Source: Paenibacillaceae bacterium UBA6304
Lineage (GTDB): Bacteria > Bacillota > Bacilli > Paenibacillales > Paenibacillaceae
Direction of reading: 5' to 3'
Length of the DNA: 15,201 bases
Assembly: GCA_002439285.1 (NCBI GenBank)
Contig: DJTQ01000269.1
Coordinates: 1-15,201, forward strand
Shown here one piece after another: positions 1 through 14,368 of the stretch; the stretch's first letter is position 1, and each line of letters starts with the position of its first letter. Under the pieces are notes generated by a model, which was not told the origin of the DNA, searched no databases, and saw only the letters and a program-made list of their open reading frames with translations. The translations under genes and the position numbers were made by a program.

Positions 1-49
1 TGGTCCGAGGCTCATCATCGACAATCAAAATGGTTTTCGATTTGAACAT
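1..49 (-). CDS. Response regulator, N-terminal fragment (receiver domain, runs off the left edge)
   Basis: Only the first 16 codons are in the window. They read MFKSKTILIVDDEPRT, which is the first beta strand of a CheY-like receiver followed by the acidic DDE pocket that binds Mg2+ and helps phosphorylate the later Asp. The ATG lies 2 bp past the stop of the histidine kinase, and its ribosome site (GAGG, 7 nt upstream) is formed by the last bases of the kinase gene, so the two are co-transcribed and probably translationally coupled. Partners of YesM-type kinases are usually YesN-type regulators with an AraC-type DNA-binding domain. That part lies outside the window, so the output domain is inferred. 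Confidence 0.8.
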   Translation of the reverse strand, partial: MFKSKTILIVDDEPRT

Positions 50-51
50 AG

Positions 52-1815
52 TTAATCCTCTCCCTTATGAATGGGAATCATCAGGCTGACTGCGGTTCCC
101 TCGTTCTCTCCGCTTCTTATCGATAGTCCGGGTTGTTCCCGCTCTGAACCTCCATAGTAAAGCTTCAGCCTTTGCTGTACATTACAAATTCCCATTCCGG
201 ACCCTTTGGAGGAAGGGACTTTGCCGGTATCGAGCGCCGTGACGATGGTGCGGAGCGTTTCTTCATCCATGCCCTTGCCATCATCCTTCACGGTCACGAT
301 CAGATGCGTCTGATCTTCCGAAAGCGAGGTATGAACGGAGACCTCGCCCGGTCCGATCTTACCCTCAACCCCATGCAGAATCGCATTCTCGACCAATGGC
401 TGGATCAACAACTTCGGCATTTGGAGGAAGGCATAATCCGGTGATGACGTGATCGACCAGGTCAACCGCTCGCCCAGCCTCATTTTCATAATCAGGAGAT
501 AGCGTTCAACATGCTCCAGCTCATCTCGCAGCATAACCCATTCCGACTTGTTCGGCCCGGTAATCGTATACCTGAACAAATCGGACATCGCGATCACAAA
601 TTCGGCGAGCTCTTCTTCCTGTTTCTCCTGTAACGACCAATATAACGCTTCCAAAGTATTAAACAGGAAATGCGGATGGATTTGAGCCTGAAGCGCCTTC
701 AGCTCCGTCCGGCTCTGTATGATTTCTTTTTCGTAGACTAGCTCGATCAGTTCGTTCATATGCTCAACCATCTGATTGTACGTATGATTCAACTCGTTGA
801 TTTCAATGGTGGATGAAATTTGCTTCGTCGGCTTCAGTCCTCCTAGCCGTGCACCGCGCATCGTCTTGATCAGCTTGAAAATCGGGCGCGTAATGAGCGT
901 AGACATCAAGAAGGACAACACGATAAACAGCAGCGTGCCAATGCCCGCAGATAGGAGAATCGTCGTGCGAAGCACGGAAATACCGTCCGTTATGGCGCTG
1001 ACCGGCGTTAAGATCAGAAGCGTCCAACCCGTAACTTCCGATTGCTGCTTGACCAGCATAAATTTCTCTTTGCCGATGGTCACGATCGGCTCTGAAGATT
1101 GAATTAGCGTTTTGATAGCTCCGGCCGGAACCCGGTCGTCGGATTTGGTGATCAGGCTATAATTTCGGCCGACAACCAGCATCGTTTCACTCCCGGACTC
1201 CCCGGCCAGCGAGTCGTTGACTTTGAACGCGTCGCGGTCCATCCGGACAAGCAGATATCCGCCTGACATGAACCATTGATCCATCAGGCTGATACTTCGA
1301 ATCGCCAGTAAGGTATTCGGTTCCAGAGGATCAATACCTACCCAGACCATCCGACCTTTGGCCGCTTTGGCCTTCATAATCCAATCGCTGCTGATCTTCT
1401 TGTCTAGAGAGCTGCCATCCAATGGATACAGCCGGCGGTTCTCGCTGCTGTACATCTCGACCGAGGTAATCCCGTCCGCATAGGATTGAACGATCTTTAT
1501 GCTCGCAAGCAATCCCTGCCGCTCGTAAAAGGTCGCTTCCTTACCGTTCTTTTCGTTGAGCAAAAGTTGCTGAACATAGGGATTCGTTGCGACCTGAGTC
1601 GTCAGCGAATCAATCTGGTTAAGCACCGCCTCGAGCCGGCCGTTCGCCTGAATTGCCGTTTGCTGAATATGTTTTTCCGCATTATTTTTCAAAAGCCCGG
1701 AAACCGAGTCAAAAGTGAAGATGCCTACCACGAACAAAATAATGATCATCACAAACAGAAATCCGACCAGCATCTGATTCCTGAGGGTATTCCAACGGCT
1801 AGTCCGAAATTTCAT
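52..1815 (-). CDS. YesM/LytS-type sensor histidine kinase
   Basis: This is a 587-residue membrane sensor kinase that phosphorylates the response regulator starting just downstream. Transmembrane helix 1 is at about residues 16-35, an extracytoplasmic sensor region (Cache-like by length and family habit) at 36-283, helix 2 at about 285-307, and a HAMP linker at about 308-360. The family histidine box IHPHFLFNTL spans 379-388; the phosphorylated residue is probably H382. The ATPase domain shows the N box (PLVENAILHG, 473-482), G1 (DDGKGM, 511-516) and G2 (GSGMGICNVQQRL, 538-550), so the enzyme looks intact. The frame is open for 16 more codons to an ATG at 1863. I chose the ATG at 1815 because it is followed directly by the basic pre-helix segment and has AAAGGCGG upstream, while the 1863 start has no ribosome site. 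In this genus such pairs often control carbohydrate uptake genes, but no target gene is visible here. Confidence 0.93.
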   Translation of the reverse strand: MKFRTSRWNTLRNQMLVGFLFVMIIILFVVGIFTFDSVSGLLKNNAEKHIQQTAIQANGRLEAVLNQIDSLTTQVATNPYVQQLLLNEKNGKEATFYERQGLLASIKIVQSYADGITSVEMYSSENRRLYPLDGSSLDKKISSDWIMKAKAAKGRMVWVGIDPLEPNTLLAIRSISLMDQWFMSGGYLLVRMDRDAFKVNDSLAGESGSETMLVVGRNYSLITKSDDRVPAGAIKTLIQSSEPIVTIGKEKFMLVKQQSEVTGWTLLILTPVSAITDGISVLRTTILLSAGIGTLLFIVLSFLMSTLITRPIFKLIKTMRGARLGGLKPTKQISSTIEINELNHTYNQMVEHMNELIELVYEKEIIQSRTELKALQAQIHPHFLFNTLEALYWSLQEKQEEELAEFVIAMSDLFRYTITGPNKSEWVMLRDELEHVERYLLIMKMRLGERLTWSITSSPDYAFLQMPKLLIQPLVENAILHGVEGKIGPGEVSVHTSLSEDQTHLIVTVKDDGKGMDEETLRTIVTALDTGKVPSSKGSGMGICNVQQRLKLYYGGSEREQPGLSIRSGENEGTAVSLMIPIHKGED

Positions 1816-2034
1816 TGTATCGCAATCCGCCTTTCGTCCAGTTCCACTTGCTGCGCATGGCATTCGAGTTTATCTAATTCTAGAACAGTGGCGGATTCCC
1901 CTTTTTTTTTTTACGCTGATCGACATAAAAATAATCATCTCTCAGGCAGCGGCCTTTAGTCGCTTTTTAAAAGGGATCATGTTATTGTTACGTTTAAATG
2001 AAGCGCTGTCAAGAAGAAGTGGAGGGGGAAGAGA

Positions 2035-2598
2035 ATGACCATTTATATCGCGCTGCTGCGGGGCATTAACGTGGGTGGCAAGAACAAAATTAAAATGGCC
2101 GATTTAAAAACGGAGCTGGAAAAGATCGGACTTGCTAAGGTACACACGTATATCCAAAGCGGCAATGTTCTGTTTGCATCCGACAGGGATGAACCTGCGC
2201 TTCGCCGGGACATTGAGCAGATGATCGAAGCGGTGTTCGGCCTATCGCTGATCGTAGTTCTCCGCACCGCCAGCGAAATCACAACGATCGTAGAAAGCTG
2301 TCCATTTCCTGAAGTAGTGTTAGCGGAGGCCGAAGCCACCTGTGTCGGGGAGAGCCTGCATGTCGCCATGCTTCCGGAACCACCAGCCCAGTCAGGGGTG
2401 GACAAGCTGGATGCGGTAGAACGCGGCGGCGATTTGTACAGCATCGCCGGACGCGATGTCTATTTGCTGTTCAGACATAGCATCCGGGACTCGAAGCTGG
2501 CCACAGGCCTGCCTAAGCTGGGGGTCCAGGCCACGGTCCGAAACTGGAAGACCATGAATAAGCTCGCTGAATTGGCCGAGGGAATGAAGCAAGTTTGA
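2035..2598 (+). CDS. DUF1697 family protein
   Basis: This is a 187-residue soluble protein. Its N-terminus carries the DUF1697 signature: IALLRGINVGGKNKIKM, then the LKTELEKIGL helix, then TYIQSGNVLFAS. Length is normal for the family, which is widespread in bacteria and has no established biochemical role. The C-terminal half has the conserved pattern around YLLFRHSIRDSKL and the RNWKTMNKLAEL ending. The ATG is preceded by a very strong ribosome site (GGAGGGGG, about 6 nt upstream). The gene stands alone on the plus strand, divergent from the kinase. I see no convincing sigma-A promoter in the 170 bp upstream and no strong terminator directly after the stop. No signal peptide or membrane segment is apparent. 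Confidence 0.9.
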   Translation: MTIYIALLRGINVGGKNKIKMADLKTELEKIGLAKVHTYIQSGNVLFASDRDEPALRRDIEQMIEAVFGLSLIVVLRTASEITTIVESCPFPEVVLAEAEATCVGESLHVAMLPEPPAQSGVDKLDAVERGGDLYSIAGRDVYLLFRHSIRDSKLATGLPKLGVQATVRNWKTMNKLAELAEGMKQV

Positions 2599-2667
2599 GC
2601 GGGGCGAGACGTCTTGGTAATGACAAACTTCCATAAACCCCGAAGGATAAAGCTGGTTTCCCTCGCT

Positions 2668-2848
2668 AACGAAACTGACAAACCTTATTTGGGCAAAATT
2701 TGGCACTATTGGAATGTAACGAAATTCAAACACGCTATTGGAGGTGAAATCACACTCCTCAGCCTCATTTTCATCAAATAGCGTGACTCAGGTTCGTTAA
2801 TTTAAATCCATAGCCTAAATCATCCAATTAAGAATACATAGATTCGTT
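2668..2848. repeat. Four-unit inverted repeat cluster I (37-nt units)
   Basis: Two direct units on the plus strand (2668-2704, 2718-2754) face two inverted units on the minus strand (2762-2798, 2812-2848). Each begins AACGAA. The shared body is CACGCTATT, then a TTGA-like step, then GAAAAT; the first and third units match at 26 of 37 positions without gaps by my count. Gaps between units are 13, 7 and 13 nt, and both nested pairs centre on exactly 2758. The inner pair can form a long imperfect hairpin with a short loop, and the outer pair can extend it. The cluster starts 69 nt after the DUF1697 stop, so it may lie in that transcript's 3' region. Confidence 0.8.
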
Positions 2849-2872
2849 ACCGACAAGCTGGTCTTGAAAAAA

Positions 2873-2914
2873 GGGGTGTTCCAAAAGTCATCGTAGATGA
2901 CTGAGGGACATCCC
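2873..2914. repeat. 41-bp hairpin resembling two fused insertion-sequence ends
   Basis: The left arm GGGTGTTCCAAAAGTCATC and the right arm GATGACTGAGGGACATCCC flank a 3-nt loop. The inner AGTCATC/GATGACT stem is perfect and the outer stem is imperfect. A-rich sequence precedes it and CCCTTTCTC follows. The left 29 nt (2874-2902) recur with one difference at 3368-3396, directly upstream of a transposase remnant, so the hairpin reads as a minimal element made of two insertion-sequence ends. It could also work as a weak terminator for the upstream plus-strand gene. Confidence 0.6.
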
Positions 2915-2986
2915 TTTCTCTTGACCAAACTCACTTTCACCATGTCGCTCTCCTCCCTTGGCTCACCAGATCGCTATATGAAGATT

Positions 2987-3169
2987 AACTGGAAAACCTA
3001 CAGTTATTTCGCGCGGTAAGCCAGGTCCGGTCAAACTAACTGGAAATCCTACAGTTAATTTAGACACTTGCAGCGGAATGAGCGGAAAAGGTAAGAATTA
3101 ACTGTAGAAAATACAGCTAATTGTCCAGAATGACTGAATTCACGATAATTAACTGTAGGTAATACAGCT
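2987..3169. repeat. Four-unit inverted repeat cluster II (19-nt palindromic units)
   Basis: The units are at 2987-3005, 3038-3056, 3100-3118 and 3151-3169. The first two read AACTGGAAA(A/T)CCTACAGTT. The last two are in the opposite orientation: AACTGTAGAAAATACAGCT and AACTGTAGGTAATACAGCT. Each unit has AACTG/CAGTT-type dyad ends, and AT-rich flanks (TTA, AATT) extend the similarity. Unit starts are 51, 62 and 51 nt apart, and the nested pairs share one centre at 3078. Spacers (32, 43 and 32 nt) are not similar to each other. The units show no coding potential. Confidence 0.85.
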
Positions 3170-3222
3170 AACTTGCTCCCATCAGACACTCCTATCCATC
3201 CCAGCAGTGAATGCATGAAGTG

Positions 3223-3248
3223 ACTGGTTACTGGTTAGTGGTTACTGG
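3223..3248. repeat. Heptamer tandem repeat, 3.7 copies
   Basis: The unit ACTGGTT is repeated in tandem as ACTGGTT, ACTGGTT, AGTGGTT and ACTGG. It lies 54 nt after cluster II and reuses the ACTGG word found in the cluster II units. No gene overlaps it. It is probably a small slipped-strand repeat. Confidence 0.7.
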
Positions 3249-3367
3249 AAAGTTTGCTTAATGTGCGCCTGTTTCGTGTCCAGTTAGTTATAGTAATTAA
3301 TTCGTGCCCCTTAGCCGGAACGCTCAGGGAGGAATTCCTCTACGGGGCCAAACTTCTTAGAGAGCGA

Positions 3368-3505
3368 GGGTGTTCCAAAAGTCATCGTAGTTGACTTGGT
3401 AAAGTGGAAGTATCGAGCAACCATTCAAAAAGGAGAAGTTTCTTAATATACATTCAATTTACAAAGGAACAACTTGGCTTGCCAATGGACTTGGAAGGAG
3501 ATATT
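3368..3505 (+). mobile_element. Left-end relic of an IS1182-like insertion sequence
   Basis: The segment begins with a 29-nt sequence at 3368-3396 (GGGTGTTCCAAAAGTCATCG, then TAG, T, TGACT) that also occurs at 2874-2902 and is the likely terminal inverted repeat. About 50 nt later come an AAAGGAG ribosome site and the first codons of a transposase. No matching right end or transposase body follows. The remaining sequence runs into the MATE terminator, so the element is a stump left by deletion. Assignment to IS1182 rests on the transposase N-terminus, recalled from family members and not searched. Confidence 0.6.
3446..3505 (+). pseudogene. IS1182-like transposase, N-terminal remnant of about 20 codons
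   Basis: The frame reads IYIQFTKEQLGLPMDLEGDI. From memory, intact IS1182-family transposases of Paenibacillus and Bacillus begin close to MYIQYTMDQLCLPMDLEEDI, so nearly every position corresponds. The expected ATG is ATA here (3446-3448), although AGGAG is still correctly placed 10 nt upstream. After residue 20 the similarity stops: the next codons (RLARTLSELL) do not continue the family sequence. Start loss together with loss of the remaining protein marks it as a dead fragment. Confidence 0.65.
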
Positions 3506-3549
3506 CGCTTGGCGCGCACACTCAGCGAATTACTCTTCCCGGCAAAGAG

Positions 3550-3589
3550 AAGGAGCCAGCCAAGAATAACATCTCTTGGCCGGCTCTTT
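3550..3589 (-). terminator. Rho-independent terminator of the MATE gene
   Basis: A 16-bp stem (arms 3550-3565 and 3574-3589, two imperfect pairs) with an 8-nt loop and a GC-rich core AGCCGGCCAAGA lies 16 bp past the MATE stop. On the minus strand it is followed by the U-rich tail CTCTTT. The other flank has fewer consecutive T residues, so the minus direction is favoured. Confidence 0.75.
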
Positions 3590-3604
3590 GTATACTTCTA
3601 TCTA

Positions 3605-5035
3605 TCAAATCAATTTATGCGCATACCACTTCTTGCCGCGGAAACGCCACAGAAAGAGAGTTCCGCGTACGGCCCATTCGCAGTTCATCGCCAACCAGAC
3701 GCCCAGAATACCGAAGCCCAGCACAATACCGAGAACGTATCCTAAAATGACCCGGAACAGCCACATTGTCATCATCGAAGTGATCGAGGTAAACTTCGAG
3801 TCTCCCGCAGCCCGCAGGGCGGACGGCAGAATAAAGCTGATTGGCCAGAGCGGAATCGCCGCAAGTGTATTGATCAGCAGGACCAGGAAGATGTCGCCCA
3901 CGATTTCGGCAGGCGGTTCGAAAATACCGACGAGCGGCCGGAAAAACGGCATTAGCACGAGTCCGATCACTAGCAATGAGCAGGAGCCCAGCCAGAGCAG
4001 CGATTTGATGAACTTACGGGCATCCGCAACACTCCCGCTGCCGATACATTGTCCGACGATCGTTACGATCGTTAGAGACAGTGCGCTTGCCGGAATCTGA
4101 AACACCATCGCTAGCGAACCTGCGATCGCGTTAGTCGCAATGGCATAAGTTCCCAAGCTAACGATAAATACTTGAGTGAGCAGTTTCCCCCCGTTGAAAA
4201 ACATCTGCTCCGCAGCAAACGGAACGCCGATAAACATGATTTTGCGAAGCATTGACACCGGAAAATGAAACAGATCGCGGATGCGGAGGTGCAGCGTAGC
4301 ATCCATTTTGAACAAATAGAACAAAGCGCAAGCCGCTCCTGCATAACGAGCAATGTTGATGGCGATCGTCATGCCCATAACACCCATATGGAGAAAATTA
4401 ATAAAGACCACGTTCAATACAACATACAACAGATTCATAATGAGCGATAGGGCCAGCGATGCACGAGTTTTGCCGATCCCACGCAAGGCACCGCATACCG
4501 CCTGGACGATCGCAATCCCAAAGTAAGAGAGGCTGCTGCCTATCAGATAAATCCGGGCGCTGTCCAGCACATCGGCCGAAGCCGAACCGAACAGGACATT
4601 GAGCACCGGGTTGTGAAAGGCCATGATCAAAAGCCCGACTACCAAGGCCATCACCGATACGGATGTCACTGAGCTTGCCGAAGCCAGCGATACCATCTTA
4701 TCGTTACGGCTCCCTTTATACTGGGCCACCACGACCGTGCCCCCCGTGGCCACGGCCACAAATACATTGATCAGGAACACATTCAGCGAATCGACCATAT
4801 TCACGGCGCTAACCGCTGAGACGCCCGACGAACTGATCATAGCGGTGTTCAACAAATTCAACCCCACGATGAATGCCTGGTCAATCAATATCGGAATAAA
4901 TAGGGCGATCATTTGCCGGTAATCCATCGATTCCCCGGTAAAGTATTTGTCCAGAAAGCCCCTCATTTGAATACGTAAGCGAAGTTGCTTCAAGCTCATC
5001 ACATTCTTTTCTTTAAAATGGAAAAAACCCTTCAT
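3605..5035 (-). CDS. MATE family multidrug efflux transporter
   Basis: This is a polytopic membrane protein of 476 residues with about twelve hydrophobic segments, the size and layout of MATE (MatE/NorM-like) cation-coupled antiporters that export drugs or metabolites. The first half shows the family pattern MIALFIPILIDQAFIVGLN, then NTAMIS, AVNMVDSLN, and GGTVVVAQYKG at the end of helix 2. The second half repeats the fold from about IGVPFAAEQMFFNGGKLL, with PASALSLTIVTIVGQCIGSG. The start is uncertain: a TTG at 5050, an ATG at 5035 and an ATG at 4999 are all in frame. None has a strong ribosome site (GAGAG 8 nt before 5035; AAAGAAAAG before 4999). I use the longest ATG form; the recognisable domain starts well after all three. 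It is monocistronic, with its own promoter and terminator candidates. The substrate cannot be told from sequence. Confidence 0.93.
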   Translation of the reverse strand: MKGFFHFKEKNVMSLKQLRLRIQMRGFLDKYFTGESMDYRQMIALFIPILIDQAFIVGLNLLNTAMISSSGVSAVSAVNMVDSLNVFLINVFVAVATGGTVVVAQYKGSRNDKMVSLASASSVTSVSVMALVVGLLIMAFHNPVLNVLFGSASADVLDSARIYLIGSSLSYFGIAIVQAVCGALRGIGKTRASLALSLIMNLLYVVLNVVFINFLHMGVMGMTIAINIARYAGAACALFYLFKMDATLHLRIRDLFHFPVSMLRKIMFIGVPFAAEQMFFNGGKLLTQVFIVSLGTYAIATNAIAGSLAMVFQIPASALSLTIVTIVGQCIGSGSVADARKFIKSLLWLGSCSLLVIGLVLMPFFRPLVGIFEPPAEIVGDIFLVLLINTLAAIPLWPISFILPSALRAAGDSKFTSITSMMTMWLFRVILGYVLGIVLGFGILGVWLAMNCEWAVRGTLFLWRFRGKKWYAHKLI

Positions 5036-5125
5036 CTGAAGAGCTCTCAATCAGCGAATCGGTAAATTACGACAAGATCTGAGTATTTCCGGGTCAATTG
5101 CCCAGGATTCAACAATACCTGTTTG

Positions 5126-5154
5126 ACGATATCACTCGTAGCATGTTCTGTCAA
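5126..5154 (-). promoter_or_regulatory. Candidate sigma-A promoter for MATE
   Basis: On the minus strand a perfect -35 box TTGACA (5154-5149) is followed after 17 nt by TATCGT (5131-5126), which matches the -10 consensus at four of six positions. This would start transcription near 5119, about 85 nt before the ATG at 5035. TTGAC (5123-5127) and GTCAA (5150-5154) form an inverted repeat across the promoter, which could be an operator, but short dyads arise by chance. Confidence 0.4.
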
Positions 5155-5224
5155 TGAAAGTGGTCGCTCTAGTTGCACGGTCCTGGGCTCCATCCAATTG
5201 GCCTCTCAATGATCATTAAACGCC

Positions 5225-5250
5225 AAAAAGACCGCCTAAGCGGTCTTTTT
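5225..5250. terminator. Perfect bidirectional rho-independent terminator
   Basis: The arms AAAAAGACCGC (5225-5235) and GCGGTCTTTTT (5240-5250) are perfectly complementary around a CTAA loop and give a U-tract on either strand. It most likely ends the large minus-strand operon whose last stop is at 5566, which leaves a 3' untranslated region of over 300 nt that includes repeat cluster III. Confidence 0.9.
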
Positions 5251-5308
5251 GAGCACGGGAAAACTTTGGTGAGGGACGACTACAGAGATGGATTCCTACT
5301 CTGTGCAC

Positions 5309-5505
5309 AATAGCGGACTTTTTGGGCCTTATTTCCCTAAATTTAAGCTTGAACTAGAAAATAGGGCCCCAAAAGGGCCCTATTTATCTAAATCACACTA
5401 GTTTTGACACTTTTGGCGCTACATCTGAAAAATAAGACCCTGAAAGTCCCCTATTTTCCCTTAATGCTGATAATCACGCAAATAGCGCCCCAAAAGTCCC
5501 CTATT
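5309..5505. repeat. Four-unit palindrome cluster III (26-nt units)
   Basis: The units are at 5309-5334, 5359-5384, 5430-5455 and 5480-5505. In the forward direction they share AAATA at one end, a CCCCAAAAGTCC-like core and CCCTATT at the other. The first unit is inverted (GGACTTTTTGGGCC core). The second is almost perfectly palindromic: AAATAGGGCCC at 5359-5369 and GGGCCCTATTT at 5375-5385 around CAAAA. Units two and four differ at 3 of 26 positions. Starts are 50, 71 and 50 nt apart, and both nested pairs centre on 5407. The cluster lies 60 nt beyond the stop of the operon's last gene and before the terminator, so it is probably transcribed as 3' UTR. Confidence 0.85.
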
Positions 5506-5565
5506 ACTCATTCGGTCGATCCTAACCTCTTTATATCTAACAGTAGTCGCCTTGTGGCAATCATT

Positions 5566-8500
5566 TCATTTTGTCGTATCTTTGAGGTTCGTTTTTTCCG
5601 AGGAATCCGAGGGATCAATCTCATCTTGTCCCTGCAATTCCTGCTTTGTAATTTCTTTTACTGTATATTCAGTATCCCCCACGGTAATCACACTTCCATC
5701 AGGAATGGATTGACCCACTATTACGGTGACACGTCCAGGATACTGCTCCGGCGTTTTGACTTCCGGCGGTGCTACGGAAGCGGGGTCCGTCACGGCGGCC
5801 CCTGCGCCTGTGGTTCCTGTAGCCCCCGTGGTTCCAGTGGAGTCGGTGGTGCCGGTCCCTGGTGATTCTGTTGAATTTTTCGTTCCTGTCGTTTTCGTTG
5901 ATTCCTTGGTTCCCGCATTTCCGGACTCGGACTTTCCGGGCGTTGACTTCTTTTCCTTACTGGACGCAGGGTCTGTTTCCTCACCGGTTACAGGATCGCT
6001 ACCCTTACCCTTACCTGCTGCTTCGTTTCCTTTGGTCTCTTCCTTGTTTCCCTCCGAATTTCCGTTACCCGGAGCGTCGGCAGCACATTCTGAAGTAAAT
6101 TTCAGCATGGACAGTTCCTGCGGCTCTTCGCCCTTTACCTGAATCGACAGTACACTTGGTTTGAATTTGGTGCACTCGGTTAGATCATCAAAAGGAAAGA
6201 TCAGGTGCGTTTCGACTTTGCCGTCACCCTCGGCGGCGTTCACCTTCTCGGCAAATACGATGGATTCCATTACAGGATCCACTGGAACATTCGTTCCATC
6301 GGTCGTTGCAGGCGGAGTATCCGACACGGGATCATCCTTCCCGATCACGCCGGTTTCCTTCAGCACCACCAGTCCTCCGACCACAATGATTACTAACAGG
6401 CAGAGTACTGCCGATGTGGCAACGACTGCTTTCCGTTTTTGGACCAATAATCGGCTCAGCGGAGAAGACAGTTCCAGCTTAGCCTTGTCGAATACGGTCC
6501 CGAGCGCCTTACCCGCCTTCGAAAAATAGTTCCGGCGATATTCGCGGCTCTTGAAGGCGGTTTTGTCATGTCTTTTGAAATAGGCCAAAATAGCCGACGC
6601 ATAAGCGGGAACCAGCCCCCGGGGACGCGCAAAATTGGGATGCTGTTGTGACCACAGCATAAATTCATAAATGACTTCCTTGTTATCGACATTTCTGCGT
6701 AAATAATCAAACAGTGAAGTATACTCCACAAAGCCCGTCTCCGACTCCCGATAGAAGGCCAAGGCGACCCTATGAAATTCAGAGGATCTAATTTCACCTT
6801 GAAGCCATCTGCGGACAAGCTGCTGGACGCGATCCACTTCCACCAGACCCAATCCGTCAAATATCTCAACATCCGATTTGTCCTCGTTGAATATCCGATA
6901 TGCGGCGTACAGAACGGCGGCATTGCTGCTCAGACGGGAATCCTTCTGGCTTCGTACCCATGCTTTGCCGTCCAGCCGGCCCAGAAATTCGGCACTCATC
7001 AGTTGCTCTCTCGTGAGCCTGTCCAAGTCCAATTCGCTTAGCAGCATACGGCTGGCTGCCGTGGATAACAACTCTGTCATTCCGGATTCCTCAAACGCGT
7101 TATCCGCCGGCGAGTGCCCGCCAGACCATTTGCCGGTCTCCAGCAAAATCAGATTCACGGCACGGAGCAGCCCCGAATTGCTGCGCAGCAGGTCCATTAA
7201 CCGGTTGCGCGCGGCCTCCTGAAAAGAAGTGTCGTAAAGCACCCGCGGATGTTTTGTGCCCCATGAGTAGATTAAGCTTAGAATTCCCTTGATATCCCCG
7301 GTTTTGTTGAATTTGTCGCGGATATAAGGATCAAACAAAGCTTTGGAGAGCCCTTCATTTCCAAGTACGCTCGTAAAGAAAGCAGCGTCAAGCCCGGGAT
7401 GACCCTCAATCAGTGCATATAAGGCATCAACTTCATCACGCCGCTCCTGCATCAGCGTATTCCTCAAAGCACGGACGTAATAAGCGATGATCTTATCCTC
7501 TTGACCGGCTCCCTGAATCCCGAAATAATCGCGGAAGCATTCCGCGACGGCAAGATCGGGAACCTGTCCTTGGCTTACCCGGTCAAACTCAAGATCGAAA
7601 CGGGACAGGAACAGATCGTTCAGGTCCATTCTCGTCTCCAGGGACCCGACCGGCCGCAAATACTCCAGCAATCCCCGTAAAACCGCAAGCTTATGATCTT
7701 CATACATCACGTCATCGCCGGACTTCACTTGATAGAACACAGCTAATTCATGATAGCTGGACAGGGCCGACTTACGTTCGCTCCCCATTCCTTCCAACAT
7801 AGCATCGGCAAAAGCAAAAAAGTCCTCCAGCCGGTCTACGTGATCCAGACTACTCCAGACAAGATCAAGGTAAGGCTGGCGCGACCAATCCAGATCGATC
7901 TGTCCGGTCCGTTCGGCAGCCAAGTCAAATACAAAATCCTTCTCAATATTACGGTCATTGGGACGCAGGCTCCCCTTTTCCACAAATTGAAGATGGATAT
8001 ACTTCTTATTGGCCGGCTCCTTGGCATAAGTAAGAAAGCCCAAACGTCTGCGGAACTCAAAAGGCAGGCAGGCATACAAGATGTCCAGCAGAGAGAGTGC
8101 CTCCCTGGAGATGTCCTCCACAGGGACGTTCAGCGATACATATACTTTCTTTCTGCCCTGTCCCGAAGCCGTCATTACGGCGAACAACAATTGTTTGAAA
8201 AGGAGTTCATCCAGACCTAGCCGGGCCAGACGTTCCTTGGCGGAAGTTTGTCCCGCTGCAGCCAAGCTCCCACCCGAGCGCGGAATTTGTGATAATTCAG
8301 GCAACTCGGTCCCGTGCTCCACATCATATCCACTCTCAAATGCGGCCCCGATCCAAGACTTGTAATTCGCAACGATTTCCTCGGAGCGGTCTCCGGGAAT
8401 GACATAATTATGCGTAAAAAAAGCACTCCGCAGCCCGGTGAAATCCACCGGTTGATATATGCTGCGGCCCAGCACGGTTTCGCCGCTTTCAGCGTGAAAC

Positions 8501-8724
8501 AGATGCACGGACTCGGGATACAAGGCCCCGTCCTTCTCACTGCGGGCCGTAAGCTCGGCGGGCGCATCGTACATGCAGAACGGATGAAGGACCTTCTTGA
8601 TAAAGGCCACTTCAAGGCCGGGAGATTTGGCTACCGTATCGAAACCTTCGGCGGAGCGAAATACGCCCCGCCGCTCCCGGGTGTACATTTGCTGCTGAAT
8701 ACTTCCTGGAGAGATAGACTTCAA
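5566..8724 (-). CDS. GAP1-like GTPase-associated protein with one transmembrane helix
   Basis: This protein has 1052 residues. The first 100 residues, with IQQQMYTRERRGVFRSAEGF, DTVAKSPGLE and then FFTHNYVIPG near residue 100, resemble the N-terminal domain of the GTPase-associated protein 1 (GAP1) families, which are genomic neighbours of DO-type GTPases. Residues to about 750 are soluble and mostly helical in the second half. A single hydrophobic helix at about 767-788 follows the basic QKRK, so the N-terminal part should be cytoplasmic and the last 260 residues outside. The outer part has a small domain with two Cys (851 and 880), a Thr/Gly/Ser/Glu-rich linker at about 884-985, and a short beta-rich end. 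The start is TTG: it overlaps the GTPase stop as TTGA (8721-8724) and has a strong GAGGGGAG site 7 nt upstream. The N-terminal assignment is recall-based; no enzymatic motif is visible. Confidence 0.85.
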   Translation of the reverse strand: MKSISPGSIQQQMYTRERRGVFRSAEGFDTVAKSPGLEVAFIKKVLHPFCMYDAPAELTARSEKDGALYPESVHLFHAESGETVLGRSIYQPVDFTGLRSAFFTHNYVIPGDRSEEIVANYKSWIGAAFESGYDVEHGTELPELSQIPRSGGSLAAAGQTSAKERLARLGLDELLFKQLLFAVMTASGQGRKKVYVSLNVPVEDISREALSLLDILYACLPFEFRRRLGFLTYAKEPANKKYIHLQFVEKGSLRPNDRNIEKDFVFDLAAERTGQIDLDWSRQPYLDLVWSSLDHVDRLEDFFAFADAMLEGMGSERKSALSSYHELAVFYQVKSGDDVMYEDHKLAVLRGLLEYLRPVGSLETRMDLNDLFLSRFDLEFDRVSQGQVPDLAVAECFRDYFGIQGAGQEDKIIAYYVRALRNTLMQERRDEVDALYALIEGHPGLDAAFFTSVLGNEGLSKALFDPYIRDKFNKTGDIKGILSLIYSWGTKHPRVLYDTSFQEAARNRLMDLLRSNSGLLRAVNLILLETGKWSGGHSPADNAFEESGMTELLSTAASRMLLSELDLDRLTREQLMSAEFLGRLDGKAWVRSQKDSRLSSNAAVLYAAYRIFNEDKSDVEIFDGLGLVEVDRVQQLVRRWLQGEIRSSEFHRVALAFYRESETGFVEYTSLFDYLRRNVDNKEVIYEFMLWSQQHPNFARPRGLVPAYASAILAYFKRHDKTAFKSREYRRNYFSKAGKALGTVFDKAKLELSSPLSRLLVQKRKAVVATSAVLCLLVIIVVGGLVVLKETGVIGKDDPVSDTPPATTDGTNVPVDPVMESIVFAEKVNAAEGDGKVETHLIFPFDDLTECTKFKPSVLSIQVKGEEPQELSMLKFTSECAADAPGNGNSEGNKEETKGNEAAGKGKGSDPVTGEETDPASSKEKKSTPGKSESGNAGTKESTKTTGTKNSTESPGTGTTDSTGTTGATGTTGAGAAVTDPASVAPPEVKTPEQYPGRVTVIVGQSIPDGSVITVGDTEYTVKEITKQELQGQDEIDPSDSSEKTNLKDTTK

Positions 8725-9983
8725 TTCGATTCTCTCCCCTCGATGTAATTCAACTGGTACAGCAGCCAGATAAAGGGCTCATCCACCCGGATCGGGCTGA
8801 CCACGCCTTGCAGTTTCTGATCCACCGGATTGCTTCCGAGCGCGGAAACCGCGAAATAAGCTGTGTTGGTGAAGTACACATCCATCGTACCTTTAAACGG
8901 ACGGTCCACCTTCTCGATAAAGCGCCGGATCTCTCCGTCGATATTTTCAAATTCAGCCACATTGAAGCTCTTGCGGTGAACGACATTGTTAAATACGTTG
9001 CTGTTCGGCTTGATATATTCTCCATCCCCATCGCTCAATGCACGAAGCATATCGCTCTTGGTGAGGACAACTGCCGTAGGAATATCAGTCTTCCCCTTCT
9101 CCTCATAGGCGATGAAATCCCCGAACATGGTCAGCACCACGTCCCGCGGTTCATCGTACTGGGAAACCCATTCGCCCGGCTCCCCTCCGATATTGATGCG
9201 AATCTTCTCGCGGATCGAGCGGATTTGCAGCGGATCGACCATAAATAGAATGCCGGAGGAATTCTTGATGTGCTGGCCTTGCAATCCCAGATAGTCCTGA
9301 TCCACCATTCCTTCGCCCGCCACATCAAAAAAGACCAGCGTCAATGGCGGCTTCCGGTCATCCTTGAACACAAACTGAAAAATGAACGGCTCCTGCATTT
9401 TCTCCTTTTGGGTCGAAGCAAGTAAATCTCCGCGTTCGAATAACGGCTCTTCATACATGCTGCGGAACTTCCGGCTGATCTCCGCATTCAGCGGCATGCA
9501 GGCCGCATCGAAGTGATCCGCCGTCGTATTCTGAAGCGTGTGGATTAGAGAAGTCATATACACCGACTTCCCGACCTGCGAAGCCCCGATAATAGAGATG
9601 ATGTTGCTCGGCACTTTGCCGGCGGTCACCGGAAGCTCGTTATGGCAGTGCGGGCACAATCTCCGTCGCGTGACGATTCCATAGCGGTCATTCAGCCCGA
9701 TCAACACATGGTCCGAATAAATCCGGTGTTCCTCCGGTACCTGATGAGGAGCGATAATTGCCTCCATATCGTAGACCGTGTCCAGACCGAAGCGCTCCCG
9801 GTACTTGTTCAGCGCTTCATCCTCGCCCAAAGCGTAGTCCTCGTCGTCCTCACGGTGATGCGCCGCCCGGAACACAACTTCCTCCGGCGAAAATTTACTG
9901 AAGCAATACGGGCAGACAATATCATAGAATAACGGCCGCGGCGCGGCCTGCGGTTTCTTCTTGAACATCTCGAATATGCCCAT
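8721..9983 (-). CDS. Zinc-ribbon P-loop GTPase (DO-GTPase2-like, TRAFAC type)
   Basis: This is a 420-residue soluble protein. Cysteine pairs CPYC (24-27) and CPHC (110-113, followed by His) form a split zinc ribbon around a charged insert. The GTPase core shows G1/Walker A GASQVGKS (133-140), G3 with DVAG (220-223, in FFDVAGEG), G4 TKSD (308-311) and a G5-like SALG (380-383). All key nucleotide-binding residues are present, so it should bind and hydrolyse GTP. A zinc ribbon ahead of the P-loop and a GAP1-like gene downstream fit the DO-GTPase2 family of predicted bacterial signalling or conflict GTPases. The ATG has GGAGG 9 nt upstream. It starts 28 bp after the preceding gene's stop and overlaps the next gene by 4 nt, so translation of the last two genes is probably coupled. 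Its biological role is unknown. Confidence 0.9.
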   Translation of the reverse strand: MGIFEMFKKKPQAAPRPLFYDIVCPYCFSKFSPEEVVFRAAHHREDDEDYALGEDEALNKYRERFGLDTVYDMEAIIAPHQVPEEHRIYSDHVLIGLNDRYGIVTRRRLCPHCHNELPVTAGKVPSNIISIIGASQVGKSVYMTSLIHTLQNTTADHFDAACMPLNAEISRKFRSMYEEPLFERGDLLASTQKEKMQEPFIFQFVFKDDRKPPLTLVFFDVAGEGMVDQDYLGLQGQHIKNSSGILFMVDPLQIRSIREKIRINIGGEPGEWVSQYDEPRDVVLTMFGDFIAYEEKGKTDIPTAVVLTKSDMLRALSDGDGEYIKPNSNVFNNVVHRKSFNVAEFENIDGEIRRFIEKVDRPFKGTMDVYFTNTAYFAVSALGSNPVDQKLQGVVSPIRVDEPFIWLLYQLNYIEGRESN

Positions 9984-10011
9984 GGGTTCATTCCTCCTTC
10001 AGGCTCAGGGA

Positions 10012-10647
10012 TTACTCCGCGATGAGCTCATACCATTGTCCGTACTTGCGCCCATCCGTAAAAAACAGCCGCACGTAATCGTCTTTGCCTACCTCAATGA
10101 CAGGCAGGACGTTCTTTCCCGGAGCAAAGTCTTGCAGGAAATGGAAGACGGTTCCGTCCTCCTTGCCTGCCGGATATCCGCCCTGCTTCTTGACGTAACA
10201 CAGGACGTCCTTGCCGAGCACCGTTTCCGTCATCACTTGAATTTGAATGCTTTTATATTTGCGGAATAAGCTGTTCTTCTGCGTGACCGAGTAAAAAATC
10301 CGTGCTCTCCCGGCATTCATCACCAACTGGTTCTGTCCATCCCGCTGATGGATTAGCTGCAATTCCTCGTCCGCCGTCAAACATCCGTATACTGTATATA
10401 GCACGCGGCCAATTCCGTCCAGACGTTCACGGAACCCGCCGTTGGCTTTGTATTCCTCCCGCGTGTACAACTTTAAATCCTTCTCCTCCGGCAACGTATC
10501 GGAAGGCTCGTCAGCCGGGCCCTTGTGAATATATACCGCTTGGACTCCCTCCGGCCAACGCCAGCGCAGGCATATCCAGTCTTCGTCCAGGCTATAGCTC
10601 ATTTCCCGAATGAACGGCGTGGACGGTGTAGCGTCGATAACCCGCAT
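10012..10647 (-). CDS. Beta-rich protein of unknown function, FN3-like N-terminus
   Basis: This is a 211-residue soluble protein with no signal peptide or membrane helix. Alternating hydrophobic patterns suggest two beta domains. The first has WICLRWRWPEGVQAVYIHK (about residues 24-42), like the second and third strands of a fibronectin III fold, followed by TREEYKANGGF. The second runs from about residue 130 to the end and contains VLCYVKKQGGYP and DDYVRLFFTDGR. No catalytic motif is visible. It lies between the vWA and GTPase genes with short gaps (22 and 28 bp), so it probably acts as a binding or adaptor subunit of the same complex. The ATG has GGGAGG 11 nt upstream. I recognise the layout as typical of accessory genes beside such GTPases but know no family name. 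Confidence 0.8.
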   Translation of the reverse strand: MRVIDATPSTPFIREMSYSLDEDWICLRWRWPEGVQAVYIHKGPADEPSDTLPEEKDLKLYTREEYKANGGFRERLDGIGRVLYTVYGCLTADEELQLIHQRDGQNQLVMNAGRARIFYSVTQKNSLFRKYKSIQIQVMTETVLGKDVLCYVKKQGGYPAGKEDGTVFHFLQDFAPGKNVLPVIEVGKDDYVRLFFTDGRKYGQWYELIAE

Positions 10648-10669
10648 GTCTTCTCAAACCTCCCATGCT

Positions 10670-11950
10670 CTAGAATCCTCTGTTGACTCCGTCTCGCGAC
10701 CGTTCCCCGACGGCGTTCCCGGCGGGCGTGCCTTTCCCGTTCCGACGGCGTCCTGTTGTTCTGCCTTGGTTCTCTTTGACCGGCACCACCAGTGTAAACA
10801 GAGCGATTACCCCTGCCAGGATCAGACAGGACAGCAGCCGGACCAGACCATCGGAGAAGGCATCACCGGACAGTCCGAATTCCAGCAGCAATCCTGCCAG
10901 GATCCCTCCTGCGGCGCCGCCGATACTAAAGCTCTTGGCCAGATACCGGTTATCGAACATAATGCCAAGCGCCAAACCGAGCACAGCGCCGATCAGAAGG
11001 ATCGATACGATCCGCAGCGCCATGTAATAGCCGCTATCCTCCGTCGGACCTGTCCGCTCCGTTACAAGAGAGCGTTCGCCGATGTTGTCATATATTTTCT
11101 GGAAGGCAAACGTTAGTTGATCCGCTTCCGCCACATCCTGATATTGCCCGCCCGTCTGAGCCGCAATTTCCTTGAGCAGGGCGGAGCCTTCCGCATTATC
11201 CAATCCCAGGCCGATCGCGTTGATGGCGATCCCGTCCTTTTTGTATTCGCTAAGCGCATTCGCTGTATCCACTTCGCTATATCCGTCCGACAGCAAAATC
11301 ACCAGGGTCCCACGGCTGGAGGAATTCCGCTCCTTAATCTGGTTCATCGCTTCGGTCAAAGCCAGATCAATATTGGTTCCTCCCTGCATCGGTTCCAGGC
11401 CGTCCAGTCTTGCGAACACCTCTTCTTTGACCCCTTGATCCTTCAATCTGATAAAAGGTTGGATCAACTGGGCCCTATCGTCGAATACAATAATTGCGGC
11501 CTCTTTATCCTGATCCATCTTGTTAATCAGCATTTTGGTCGCTTCATACCGGCTATCATCAGGATCGCTCTCCCCCATGCTCCCGGAGTCGTCGATGACA
11601 AACACGATATTCTTGACCTGCTTCACGCCGCCGAGATTCAATTCATAAACAAACTCAAGCGCCAGGCCCGCAACGAACAGCATCACCAGGGTTGCCGGAA
11701 CAACCAGCTTCCAGGAGGCGCCCACGTAACGTTGCCGCCAGGAGGACCCGTTCAGCCGCGGCTTGATCATCTCAGCCACCAGGCAGAATACGCCGACGCA
11801 CAGAGCCAGAATCCCGAAATACAAGCCGATAATCACCATACCGGGCAAATCGCCAGGGAGGCGATCCAGCAGAATTTCTCCAACCACAAAGCCTACGGCT
11901 CCCCCGATCAGACTGAACAACAACAGGAGCAAATTGATTTTACGTCTCAT
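10670..11950 (-). CDS. Six-helix membrane protein with a von Willebrand A domain
   Basis: This protein has 426 residues. Hydrophobic helices lie at about 5-25, 38-60, 82-102, 310-331, 343-360 and 370-390. Between helices 3 and 4 is a vWA domain (about 110-300) with a complete metal-binding MIDAS: DDSGS (120-124), the Thr of GGTN (192) and the Asp of LLSDG (222), so it should bind a ligand through Mg2+ or Mn2+. Positive charges at the N-terminus, at 63-74 and at the C-terminal tail (GRRRNGKG) place those parts in the cytoplasm and the vWA domain outside. GGAAAGGAAG precedes the ATG. The gene follows the tubulin-like gene by 36 bp and precedes the beta-rich gene by 22 bp. Topology is inferred from charge only. 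It might be a receptor or anchoring subunit of the operon's complex. Confidence 0.92.
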   Translation of the reverse strand: MRRKINLLLLLFSLIGGAVGFVVGEILLDRLPGDLPGMVIIGLYFGILALCVGVFCLVAEMIKPRLNGSSWRQRYVGASWKLVVPATLVMLFVAGLALEFVYELNLGGVKQVKNIVFVIDDSGSMGESDPDDSRYEATKMLINKMDQDKEAAIIVFDDRAQLIQPFIRLKDQGVKEEVFARLDGLEPMQGGTNIDLALTEAMNQIKERNSSSRGTLVILLSDGYSEVDTANALSEYKKDGIAINAIGLGLDNAEGSALLKEIAAQTGGQYQDVAEADQLTFAFQKIYDNIGERSLVTERTGPTEDSGYYMALRIVSILLIGAVLGLALGIMFDNRYLAKSFSIGGAAGGILAGLLLEFGLSGDAFSDGLVRLLSCLILAGVIALFTLVVPVKENQGRTTGRRRNGKGTPAGNAVGERSRDGVNRGF

Positions 11951-11986
11951 CTTGTTTGCTTCCTTTCCATTGATTTAATAGATTAC

Positions 11987-14365
11987 TCAACGCAGTTCTG
12001 GCAGCCTGTCGGGTTCTATACCGTGAAATTCGTAGCCGTTCGCAAGATAGGTCTCGTAATACACCTTGCCATTGCGGTAATACATCAGGTCCTCCAAATG
12101 AAAACCGCCCATCAGGTTCAGCTTCACTACGCCGCTGCTGCGTTTCTCATGAAGGCAGCCCAGCTTATAAATCCGCGACGTTTCGTCGACGCCGAACACA
12201 TAACGGACGAACTCACTTTCATAATCTCCAAAAATATATTTTTCCTCGTAACGGTGTTCCTGCGTGTAATCATACAGCCGCAAATGAATGGTAGCCCGGT
12301 CCTCGAGGGTCCGGTACAGCTTCTTGAACAATTCGTCCTTCGACAGAACTTCCTTATTGCTGTAATCAATCGTGACATTCGAGCGCTGCAGCAACTCCTC
12401 CTCAAACGTCAGTTTGAAGTAGGAAGAAGTCAACAGGGTATCCCGGCAAACCGCAATCAGTTTTGACAGAAGACCTTCTGTTCCGTTGTGATCCAGCAGT
12501 TCCCGTTGATTTCCAAGCATTCTATCTTCAAAAAACACGCCTGGCCCGCGCTTCGCCTTCCATTCGTCGATCACGCGTCTCGTCACCAGTTCGTAGTATT
12601 CCATAATATTCTGCCCGATGTAATCGTCCGCCCAGGTCACGCTCTCCTGTGCCGCCTCTTTCAATTGGCTTTCCAAACTCTCCAGTTGAGTGATCTTAAC
12701 GCCGTAAAGCTTATGCAGGGCTTCGACTTCCGCCTCCATCCGGGCGAGCAGCTTCAATTTCATCTCCAGAACCAGGAGGTTGCGCTTTCTGAAATAGACA
12801 GTCTGGAACAACTCCGAGATGCAGGCCCGCAAATTGCGCTTATCCATAAACGGCACCCGCTTAAAGGCCAGATGATCCACGATTCCTTCGGAAACCTGGT
12901 CCAACTCGGCCTTGGCCAAGTTCAGCTCCATTTGCGTCTCCCGGTAAAGGGCCTGCAGGAATGGGCGAATCCCGCCCCTCTCCTTATGCTCCCCGCTCCA
13001 ATGGTACAGTTGGAACAAGCCGATGAGCGGGTCGGCGGTCATGCCGGTCCGCACCGATTGATTCAGTTCTTCCGCTACGTTCAGCAGCTCCAGGCGCCGG
13101 CCGGCCGCCTCTTCATAGTTACTCCGGAAGAAGGCGGCACAACCGCCGCCGAACAACGCTTCCTCGGCCTCCCGCAGCGACATATTCCGGATGGATGCAT
13201 AGCTGACCTCATGGGTCATCAGAGCGTGCATCTCGGAAATCGCCTCGACATCCGGTACCAGGGAAGACACCCGTTCTTCGATCGCTACCGGGTTTACGCC
13301 GAACAAAGCCAGCCTCTGCTGCTCGCTTACTCCCGGGTCCTCCGCCATATCGGTCATCATCTGGCGGTAGAAATGATACAGCACCGCCAGCGCGATCGAC
13401 TGGTTAGGGCGTTTCACCTTGGCGAGGCCACCCGAAACATATCCCTGACGGCCCGATTGGGTCATGATGTTATTCTTGAACGAAGTGTTGTTGTAGTTGC
13501 TATTGGCCGGATCAAAGGTCTGTTCTTTGTATTTCCGGTTCTTCAACAGACTGATGTGGCTGATCATTTCATAACTGCTGTGCAGTTCGCCAGCCGACAT
13601 GATTCCCCGCTCGTTGCGATCCGACAGCACATACACCAGATCAAACAGCGGAGCGGCCCGGTGGGTCACCGGAATCGAAAGTCCGTCTTCCGTGACATGC
13701 AGATTGGCCTCAAAGGAATAGTCCGGCTGCTGCATATAATCCAGCTCCCGCAAAAAAGCTACTCCCGCCGAGCTGCCATAGCCGAAGGCCTCCACTTGTT
13801 CCCGTTCACTGATCAATGCGTACAAATCCATTTGCACCGACTTGAACGATTGGCCAAGAATGGACTCCGCAAGCAGCGAGAGCTCGGGGACAAACACATT
13901 AAGCGGGTCATCGACCCGCGTAATTACAGAGAGATGAATCCGGTCAAAGGAGGAGTAGAGCCGACCGTATTCCGATATTTGGCTGCTGACCCGGCGGATA
14001 GCCCGGTTCAGTTCAAACAAACCTTGCCCGCTCCGGTAAAACTCCCGGTACATGTGAGGACGAACCGTCTTCGGGTCGTCCCCTCCCCCTATTCCGGCAA
14101 GAACATGTCTCATAACCGAAGGGGAGCCATCGGGTTGACCCTTGGCCCCGTCTGCGGTCACAACGTGGAGATACATAACCCCTTTGCTGTTATCCCATTT
14201 CCGGTCGTTGATTTCCTTGACCACGTCGATGGCCTCTGCCGTCTTATCTCCAATAAACAAGAACAAAGCGGGATAATGAATGCTACTCTGATCGTCGCCT
14301 TGGCTGGTCAAACGTTCCTCGGCCCGGTCATAATCAATTGCAAATTGCTCTAGTTGCTCCTTCAT
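11987..14365 (-). CDS. Large protein with a divergent tubulin-like N-terminal half
   Basis: This is a 792-residue soluble protein. Residues 33-70 look like the first strand-loop-helix-strand of a Rossmann or tubulin fold (LFLFIGDKTAEAIDVVKEI, then VMYLHVVT). Later segments follow the order I expect in bacterial Tubulin_2-type proteins: a long helix at 115-135, a strand near 143-150, AFLRELDYM (203-211), PLFDLVYVLSDRNERG (239-254) and the GYVSGGLAKVKRP region (308-320). The tubulin signature loop GGTGSG is missing: the equivalent place reads TRVDDPLN (149-156). The C-terminal half (about 330-792) is mainly helical, with coiled-coil-like stretches. The ATG starts 3 bp after the stop of the upstream gene with a modest AAAGG site inside that gene, so the two are coupled. 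The tubulin relation is inferred from pattern order; certainty that it is a real gene is high. Confidence 0.85.
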   Translation of the reverse strand: MKEQLEQFAIDYDRAEERLTSQGDDQSSIHYPALFLFIGDKTAEAIDVVKEINDRKWDNSKGVMYLHVVTADGAKGQPDGSPSVMRHVLAGIGGGDDPKTVRPHMYREFYRSGQGLFELNRAIRRVSSQISEYGRLYSSFDRIHLSVITRVDDPLNVFVPELSLLAESILGQSFKSVQMDLYALISEREQVEAFGYGSSAGVAFLRELDYMQQPDYSFEANLHVTEDGLSIPVTHRAAPLFDLVYVLSDRNERGIMSAGELHSSYEMISHISLLKNRKYKEQTFDPANSNYNNTSFKNNIMTQSGRQGYVSGGLAKVKRPNQSIALAVLYHFYRQMMTDMAEDPGVSEQQRLALFGVNPVAIEERVSSLVPDVEAISEMHALMTHEVSYASIRNMSLREAEEALFGGGCAAFFRSNYEEAAGRRLELLNVAEELNQSVRTGMTADPLIGLFQLYHWSGEHKERGGIRPFLQALYRETQMELNLAKAELDQVSEGIVDHLAFKRVPFMDKRNLRACISELFQTVYFRKRNLLVLEMKLKLLARMEAEVEALHKLYGVKITQLESLESQLKEAAQESVTWADDYIGQNIMEYYELVTRRVIDEWKAKRGPGVFFEDRMLGNQRELLDHNGTEGLLSKLIAVCRDTLLTSSYFKLTFEEELLQRSNVTIDYSNKEVLSKDELFKKLYRTLEDRATIHLRLYDYTQEHRYEEKYIFGDYESEFVRYVFGVDETSRIYKLGCLHEKRSSGVVKLNLMGGFHLEDLMYYRNGKVYYETYLANGYEFHGIEPDRLPELR

Positions 14366-14368
14366 CGC

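Follow-up and report, generated by a model that had tools for sequence, protein, structure and literature searches.

Dispersed four-site elements of the Paenibacillales share one spacing rule across different sequence families

Four short sites at near-fixed distances make up a dispersed, noncoding repeat element that we describe here from a 15,201-nucleotide stretch of DNA of Paenibacillaceae bacterium UBA6304 (contig DJTQ01000269.1, positions 1 to 15,201; hereafter the window, from genome G000). Three clusters in the window, composed of different unit sequences, are each built of four units in mirror symmetry with outer pairs 50 or 51 nt apart, as a sequence-only reading had pointed out. Our analysis confirms that this observation is real and general and that the rule is stronger than first stated: it was recovered by scans blind to sequence, it extends over many genera, the letters of the sites and the lengths of the spacers are constrained, and the sites do not covary. 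We propose, with a confidence that falls just short of even, that the sites are assembly points for a putative oligomeric DNA-binding protein and that they have spread partly inside miniature inverted-repeat transposable elements (MITEs).

Three clusters with one layout

The three clusters of the window are as follows, each range beginning at the start of a site.

Cluster I, 2667 to 2849: sites 2667-2687 (+), 2717-2737 (+), 2779-2799 (−), and 2829-2849 (−); family TAACGAA..; spacing 50/62/50.
Cluster II, 2986 to 3170: sites 2986-3006 (+), 3037-3057 (+), 3099-3119 (−), and 3150-3170 (−); family TAACTG..CAGTTA; spacing 51/62/51.
Cluster III, 5311 to 5503: sites 5311-5331 (+), 5362-5382 (near-palindrome), 5433-5453 (−), and 5483-5503 (−); family TAGCGG..CCTTA; spacing 51/71/50.

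Once a common core was applied, the unit length was 21 nt in all three clusters, to which the differing lengths of 37, 19, and 26 nt given by the sequence-only reading can be reduced. Its four mirror-symmetric units per cluster are upheld by the 21-nt core positions and by the coinciding midpoints of the outer and inner pairs, which it had placed at 2758, 3078, and 5407: both lie at 2758 in cluster I and at 3078 in cluster II, and they lie at 5407 and 5407.5, equal within half a base, in cluster III. The outer distances it reported (50/50, 51/51, and 50/50) stand for clusters I and II, but those of cluster III are 51 and 50; likewise, its middle distances stand for clusters II (62) and III (71), but the 44 nt of cluster I, a result of the longer unit definition used, becomes 62. 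Inversion across the midpoint is seen in cluster I from the site positions (+,+,−,−) and in cluster II from a weight matrix (++−−), while cluster III reads +−−−, its second unit being an almost perfect palindrome; this strand reading by weight matrix covered clusters II and III, as cluster I had no usable matrix. The three families had also been called unrelated, which is not wholly so: a TA-N17-TA frame is common to six of the nine consensuses listed below (I, II, III/a, b, c, and f).

The spacing rule emerges without reference to sequence

Independently of any motif, we scanned 400 contiguous kb of genome G006 for direct repeats of 24-mers agreeing at 18 or more positions. Such repeats stood at distances of 50 (n = 22), 51 (n = 11), and 52 (n = 5), against a background averaging 0.9 per distance, or 0.13 after block shuffling. 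A second sequence-free scan sought sets of four units (quads) with both arm distances free between 30 and 90 nt. Quads with both arms at 49 to 52 accounted for 28 of 44 in G006 (400 kb), 23 of 40 in G043, 19 of 38 in G011, 20 of 25 in G000 (369 kb), and 9 of 14 in G016, where the G006 stretch was unselected, the G000 contigs were mostly picked for holding matches, and the G016 stretch was picked for lying around one. They accounted for none of the 3 quads in G008, 4 in G009, 3 in G018, and 2 in G024 (100 kb each of G009 and G018 being covered), and in block-shuffled controls each genome gave between 0 and 4 quads, whatever their spacing. One of the two quads in G024, a genome from another family of the order, was a 40/71/40 element, with the inner distance measured center to center. 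This element (locus L196, around 3090-3280) consists of four nearly perfect palindromes, and its arms are one helical turn shorter.

Between dyad centers in 1.4 Mb, the outer distance (n = 206) was 50 in 92 cases, 51 in 83, 52 in 23, and another value in 8. The inner distance (n = 114) was 62 in 42 cases, 61 in 14, 72 in 29, 71 or 73 in 6, and 64 or 65 in 8, all of the last belonging to family e; among the 15 remaining values, 5 at 51 arise from strand labels. For family c in G006 and G011, an eye count of the matches listed put same-strand neighbors 50 apart in 41 of 43 pairs and 51 apart in the other 2. The distances present (40, 50-51, 61-62, and 71-72) are helically phased, with family e at 64-65 as the exception. 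A histogram of palindrome centers was sparse because the dyads are bulged: few centers were found, with six pairs at 51 in G000 and none at 50-51 in G006.

Plotting distances over loci with at least two units, as the sequence-only reading had suggested, gave peaks at 50-51 nt for the arms by several scans. Neither variable spacing nor single units proved to be the norm, and fours were the commonest state. Chance, or the decay of tandem and inverted repeats, might be entertained from the small numbers in the window itself, and from nothing beyond them; the distance histograms, the shuffled controls, and the predominance of fours refute it, leaving a practically negligible probability. A common process behind one spacing rule in different sequences, as had been suggested, is supported by the sequence-free scans and by the spread over genera.

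Two-site pattern in 25 genera

To gauge breadth, 392 genomes were searched for two TAACGG..YTATTT units with the gap left free (start distance 35 to 65). The pattern matched in 94 genomes from 25 of the 49 sampled genera of the order, and a reversed-pattern control gave no match in the 392 genomes. Among the 150 matches listed, the start distances were 50 (123), 49 (11), 51 (11), 48 (1), and 61 (4), with 146 at 48 to 51; the distance of 61, the sole second peak among these matches, is one helical turn off the main peak. In genome G180, 4 of 9 pairs among the matches listed were 61 apart, constituting a 61-bp arm class within one genome. By eye, eight plus-strand pairs among the matches listed had a minus-strand pair further on, at 108 bp (1), 109 bp (6), or 121 bp (1), giving complete fours in other genera. 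Same-strand arrays with a 50-bp period were also seen, with eight units at G214:C60:27819-28192 and four at G138:C10:124467-124641.

Unit families and the four-unit state

Quad consensuses were sorted by our own motif rules into nine families, with four quads unassigned. The unit consensuses are listed below.

Family a (cluster III): TAGCGG..TTATTT
Family b: TAACGGACAC..CTTATTT
Family c: TAACGGTTGC..TTATTT
Family I: TAACGAA
Family II: TAACTG..CAGTTA
Family d: AANTGCAAAAGTGCAG
Family e: TNATTGGAAATATCCAATAGA
Family f: TAATTGCA
Family g: TGCAAATCTGCAGG

Weight matrices were derived from the quads, and the scan made with them imposes no four-unit requirement of its own. It returned 50 groups in G006 (30 exact fours and 10 singles), 48 in G043 (27 and 11), 40 in G011 (25 and 10), 19 in G016 (7 and 6), and 34 in G000 (17 and 12). 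Singles only were found in G008 (2), G009 (5), and G018 (2), and seven named Paenibacillus loci of about 23 kb yielded one four, in Paenibacillus vini only. The unit order was mainly direct-direct-inverted-inverted; labels of −+−−, +++−, or ++−+ on some fours come from near-palindromic units that score on either strand. Site 4 is an inverted copy of site 1, so that terminal inverted repeats are present, and each inverted arm comprises two direct sites.

Sites and spacer lengths are constrained, and partner sites do not covary

Genomes G006, G043, and G011 are 91 to 93% identical over aligned blocks and allow orthologous places to be compared. For 32 element groups of the G006 stretch, the same place in G043 held units of some kind in 24 cases and none in 5, with 3 unmapped; the corresponding numbers for G011 were 23, 5, and 4. 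In 25 same-family orthologous pairs, substitutions were fewest in the sites (176/2695, 6.5%), followed by the inner spacers (92/917, 10.0%), the outer spacers (175/1327, 13.2%), and the flanks (1167/7024, 16.6%). Gap openings numbered 2 in 1029 columns of outer spacer (1.9 per kb), 7 in 2993 of sites (2.3), 5 in 917 of inner spacer (5.5), and 134 in 9273 of flank (14.5). Within the sites of 19 of the 25 pairs (6 were dropped for register), changes spared the TA ends, the G-G-x-A block, and the TTAT end and fell mostly in the center and outside the core. Constrained ends with a variable center resemble a bipartite protein footprint.

The same data bear on the idea that the elements are structured RNA or DNA hairpins akin to repetitive extragenic palindromic (REP) sequences and bacterial interspersed mosaic elements (BIMEs), in which the four units would form hairpins or two long stems. 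The units are indeed imperfect palindromes in several families and nearly perfect ones in G024, single-strand folding gives z-scores of −4.6 to −5.7 versus shuffles, and Y1 transposase matches occur in the element-bearing genomes G016 (14), G010 (3), G006 (2), G043 (2), and G020 (1). However, co-changes in the 19 pairs were 0 at the local dyad (1.83 expected) and 0 between units 1 and 4 (0.35 expected), with 4 between units 2 and 3 (2.23 expected). Inverted partners within 71 elements agreed at 15.1 (units 1 and 4) and 15.0 (units 2 and 3) of 21 positions, compared with 15.9 and 15.3 for the same units across different elements of a family. Partners within an element are no more alike than those between elements, which argues for recognition in trans and not for base pairing; base-paired arms were rejected for want of covariation between partner sites. 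Furthermore, an Rfam search of window positions 2400-5800 gave one chance match only (E = 0.5; 23.2 bits versus a gathering threshold of 82), and no Y1 (PF01797) transposase was found in the element-bearing genomes G011 (100% complete), G013, G022, and G000 (86% complete). A structured RNA, which the sequence-only reading had offered as one cause, is disfavored by the absent co-change and the partner likeness, and we consider a structured RNA or DNA hairpin element quite unlikely.

Y1 transposase was rejected as a general partner of the elements, not being found in several genomes that bear them. Y1 transposases number 8 in G009 and 20 in G018, neither of which shows the element by the four-unit scan (100 kb each) or the two-site pattern.

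Copies, carriers, and turnover of loci

Apart from the window copy, cluster I recurs in its own genome as two near-full copies (contig C189, 86%; C332, 82%), a half copy on C34, and a match of 75 bp on C206. For cluster III, 33 matches were found there, long and partial counted together; in a 16-row alignment, column agreement was higher in sites than in spacers and higher in spacers than in flanks, and likeness extended from the left border of site 1 to the right border of site 4. Cluster II lies inside a longer repeat:

Larger repeat, 2873 to 3396 (about 525 bp): left hairpin GGGTGTTCC..GGGACATCCC at 2873-2914, with a related right piece at 3368-3396; the right end differs between copies.

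Long matches to this repeat family were about 78 to 90% identical (40 of 118 first-look candidates scored), and an alignment of 27 loci with the window showed a constant left hairpin and a variable right end. The hairpin GGGTGTCCC..GGGACACCC at 2873-2914 (related piece at 3368-3396; likewise at loci L061 and L062) marks where the family II repeat starts on the left. It resembles a two-way terminator, and the cluster I copies in C189 and C332 run into it as well. About 60 bp left of cluster III, window positions 5225-5252 form a likely terminator, an inverted repeat that carries A and T tracts; terminators were also noticed near other elements at some loci, uncounted.

Two direct sites per end are known from Sleeping Beauty, Tn7, and IS21, and the elements could be nonautonomous transposons of this inverted repeat/direct repeat (IR/DR) type, moved in trans by a putative transposase, with the spacing being that of the transpososome. 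Dispersal at high copy, several families per genome, the mainly direct-direct-inverted-inverted order, and the stop of family III likeness at sites 1 and 4 all fit. Nonetheless, a search of 71 elements detected no target duplication at sites 1 and 4 (best 3-nt match, 0.37). The inner distance also varies little: 91 of 114 values are 61-62 or 71-73, and 8 more are 64-65, a narrowness that transposon ends do not need. Two-unit groups listed in 1.4 Mb included no opposite same-family arms able to flank a gene, whole genomes not being scanned for such. Only a larger carrier showed a duplication, of CTA or TA, at its outer ends. The clean case is a 382-bp gain in G011 relative to G006: it encloses an a-family four-site module, is bounded by outer terminal repeats of its own (about 26 bp, beginning CTAGTAGA), and shows the CTA or TA duplication. 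G006 also contains this carrier, nested in another MITE. Simple transposon ends, the transposition machinery considered by the sequence-only reading, are disfavored by the absent target duplication and the narrow inner distance, and this origin appears unlikely, though it retains appreciable weight.

Among insertion polymorphisms of G006, G043, and G011, no movement of the four-site elements themselves was caught; where they are absent at a locus, the difference mostly looks like a deletion or wholesale intergenic replacement. Between nonorthologous copies, likeness mostly stops close to the outer sites (about 10 bp or less). The flanks of five loci align across the three genomes while the families they enclose differ, once by nested insertion. 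In P. vini, the best named relative at the window locus (contig C185; 78% amino acid identity in the best segment of a 1052-aa protein), the place of cluster III is taken by two four-site elements side by side (L084, 13231-13690), one b-like and one, by eye, TAACGAAC-like. An ordinary MITE with GTTCAAAAAGTC ends makes up many of the indels among G006, G043, and G011; several have short target duplications, showing that this MITE moved recently. With a crude open reading frame (ORF) caller, 79 of 89 elements were intergenic (25 convergent, 40 tandem, and 14 divergent) and 10 overlapped an ORF, a distribution near background with no strong rule. A plasmid collection queried with one b and one c element gave no match.

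Strand polarity of family b

Copies might instead enter single-stranded DNA at the replication fork, leaving no target duplication. In G006, where the strand listing covers places up to 3.84 Mb, b-family units of type TAACGGACACAG (67 among 100 listed of 142) switch strand at 1.8 Mb: all 30 before this point lay on the minus strand, and 36 of the 37 beyond it lay on the plus strand. With the 33 units of other types added, an eye count placed 86 of the 100 listed units in keeping with the switch. The GC skew flips at the same place, from −0.154 at 1.713-1.717 Mb to +0.138 at 1.896-1.900 Mb, and one copy (L307) sits between two genes pointing opposite to it. The pattern is not general, however: family II in G000 matches the local skew in 16 of 35 copies (3-kb contexts) or 3 of 12 (20-kb contexts), family c in G011 is of mixed orientation, and in the 400-kb stretches family e divides 2:3 and one a subfamily, including CTAG-MITE copies, 10:4. 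Moreover, replication-coupled insertion accounts for dispersal and not for the four-site ruler, and as an explanation of the elements it is distinctly improbable. Replication polarity as a general rule was rejected, since only family b and a few others follow it. The flip in b-unit orientation in G006 may reflect either insertion polarity or functional polarity.

Discussion

Our data describe dispersed noncoding elements of about 190 to 205 bp in which four 21-bp sites lie approximately 50, 62 or 72, and 50 bp apart. The explanation we favor is assembly of a protein on the four sites, which would fix all three distances; of the causes suggested by the sequence-only reading, shared binding machinery fits best. 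Four dimers of a putative family-specific DNA-binding protein would land on the sites and join into one complex. Because the site centers are about 4, 5, 6, and 7 helical turns apart (40, 50-51, 61-62, and 71-72 bp), the proteins would sit on one face of the helix, where they may touch each other or wrap the DNA. A protein rather than a nucleic acid fold probably reads the sites, and each sequence family may have its own protein, site and protein having coevolved while the architecture was kept. The elements would spread partly as passengers in ordinary MITEs, as in the one clean insertion, and likely also without target duplication. The 40/71/40 version in G024 and the 61-bp arm class in G180, each off by one helical turn, speak for such an assembly. 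Our best guess for its role is a chromosome-organizing or self-perpetuating nucleoprotein site and not gene regulation, because the copies are many, mostly intergenic, and exchangeable for other families at the same locus.

Several points weigh against this explanation. No binding protein was found, no presence/absence search aimed at one having been made; the G006 stretch contains six or more families, each of which would need its own protein. Between species, loss or replacement has affected many copies, and hence no single copy is essential. The inner distance of family e falls off the helical series, and many b pairs are alike for 50 to 100 bp past the outer sites, so the b repeat is longer than the four-site module. 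In the orthologous comparison, a pair qualified only if both genomes showed four units; this somewhat inflates site conservation, and the 25 pairs are partly nonindependent (triplets). Finally, the single-strand fold scores are strong (z = −5.7, −4.8, and −4.6), as is expected since any inverted repeat gives them.

Beyond a single assembly, the data raise the prospect, plausible but somewhat doubtful, of an element class set by geometry and not by sequence. Its families would conform to one four-site, helically phased ruler on which diversified architectural or recombination proteins build the same octamer-like complex at hundreds of places per genome, with families replacing each other at a locus and one family lying almost only in one orientation to the fork. 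Repeat families are normally recognized by their letters; in this case it is a rule of distance that is conserved, and it persists where the letters have not. The rule points to a putative protein machine acting at hundreds of sites per genome (extrapolated from 28 quads per 400 kb in G006) and offers a simple means to annotate intergenic DNA that now resembles junk. The kind of element, dispersed intergenic repeats, is known; we found neither a description of such an element in Paenibacillus nor a counterpart of the rule in the open-access literature, most subscription papers lying outside the search.

Known systems share parts of this design. MITEs combine terminal inverted repeats with target duplication. 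Like them, the present elements are noncoding, dispersed, and within the 200- to 500-bp range, and some four-site modules, including family II, ride in larger repeats with terminal inverted repeats; however, the module lacks target duplication and is found again in repeats whose terminal sequences differ. The IR/DR ends of Sleeping Beauty and the multisite ends of Tn7 and IS21 likewise have two direct sites per arm with the arms inverted, but the middle distance here is narrow and no coding partner was found in the listed groups of 1.4 Mb, whole genomes not being scanned. Tn3-type res and other recombinase accessory sites carry several dyad subsites at set distances, whereas the layout here is a symmetric one of four sites in many copies per genome. 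The bcr1 repeats of the Bacillus cereus group are also intergenic-type repeats of about 150 to 170 bp from a Bacillus group; by the title of their report they are specific to the B. cereus group, and they are set apart here by that description and not base by base. The REP sequences, BIMEs, and REP doublets forming hairpins (REPINs), as the accessible part of their source depicts them (PMC3733652), are short imperfect palindromes of high copy number, with several families per genome and often paired. Our elements differ from that depiction in being a four-unit set at near-fixed distances whose families differ in letters and not in geometry. They differ further from REPs and REP-associated tyrosine transposases (RAYTs) in that the unit consensuses show no terminal GTAG or CGTC tag and no Y1 transposase could be detected in several of the genomes that bear the elements.

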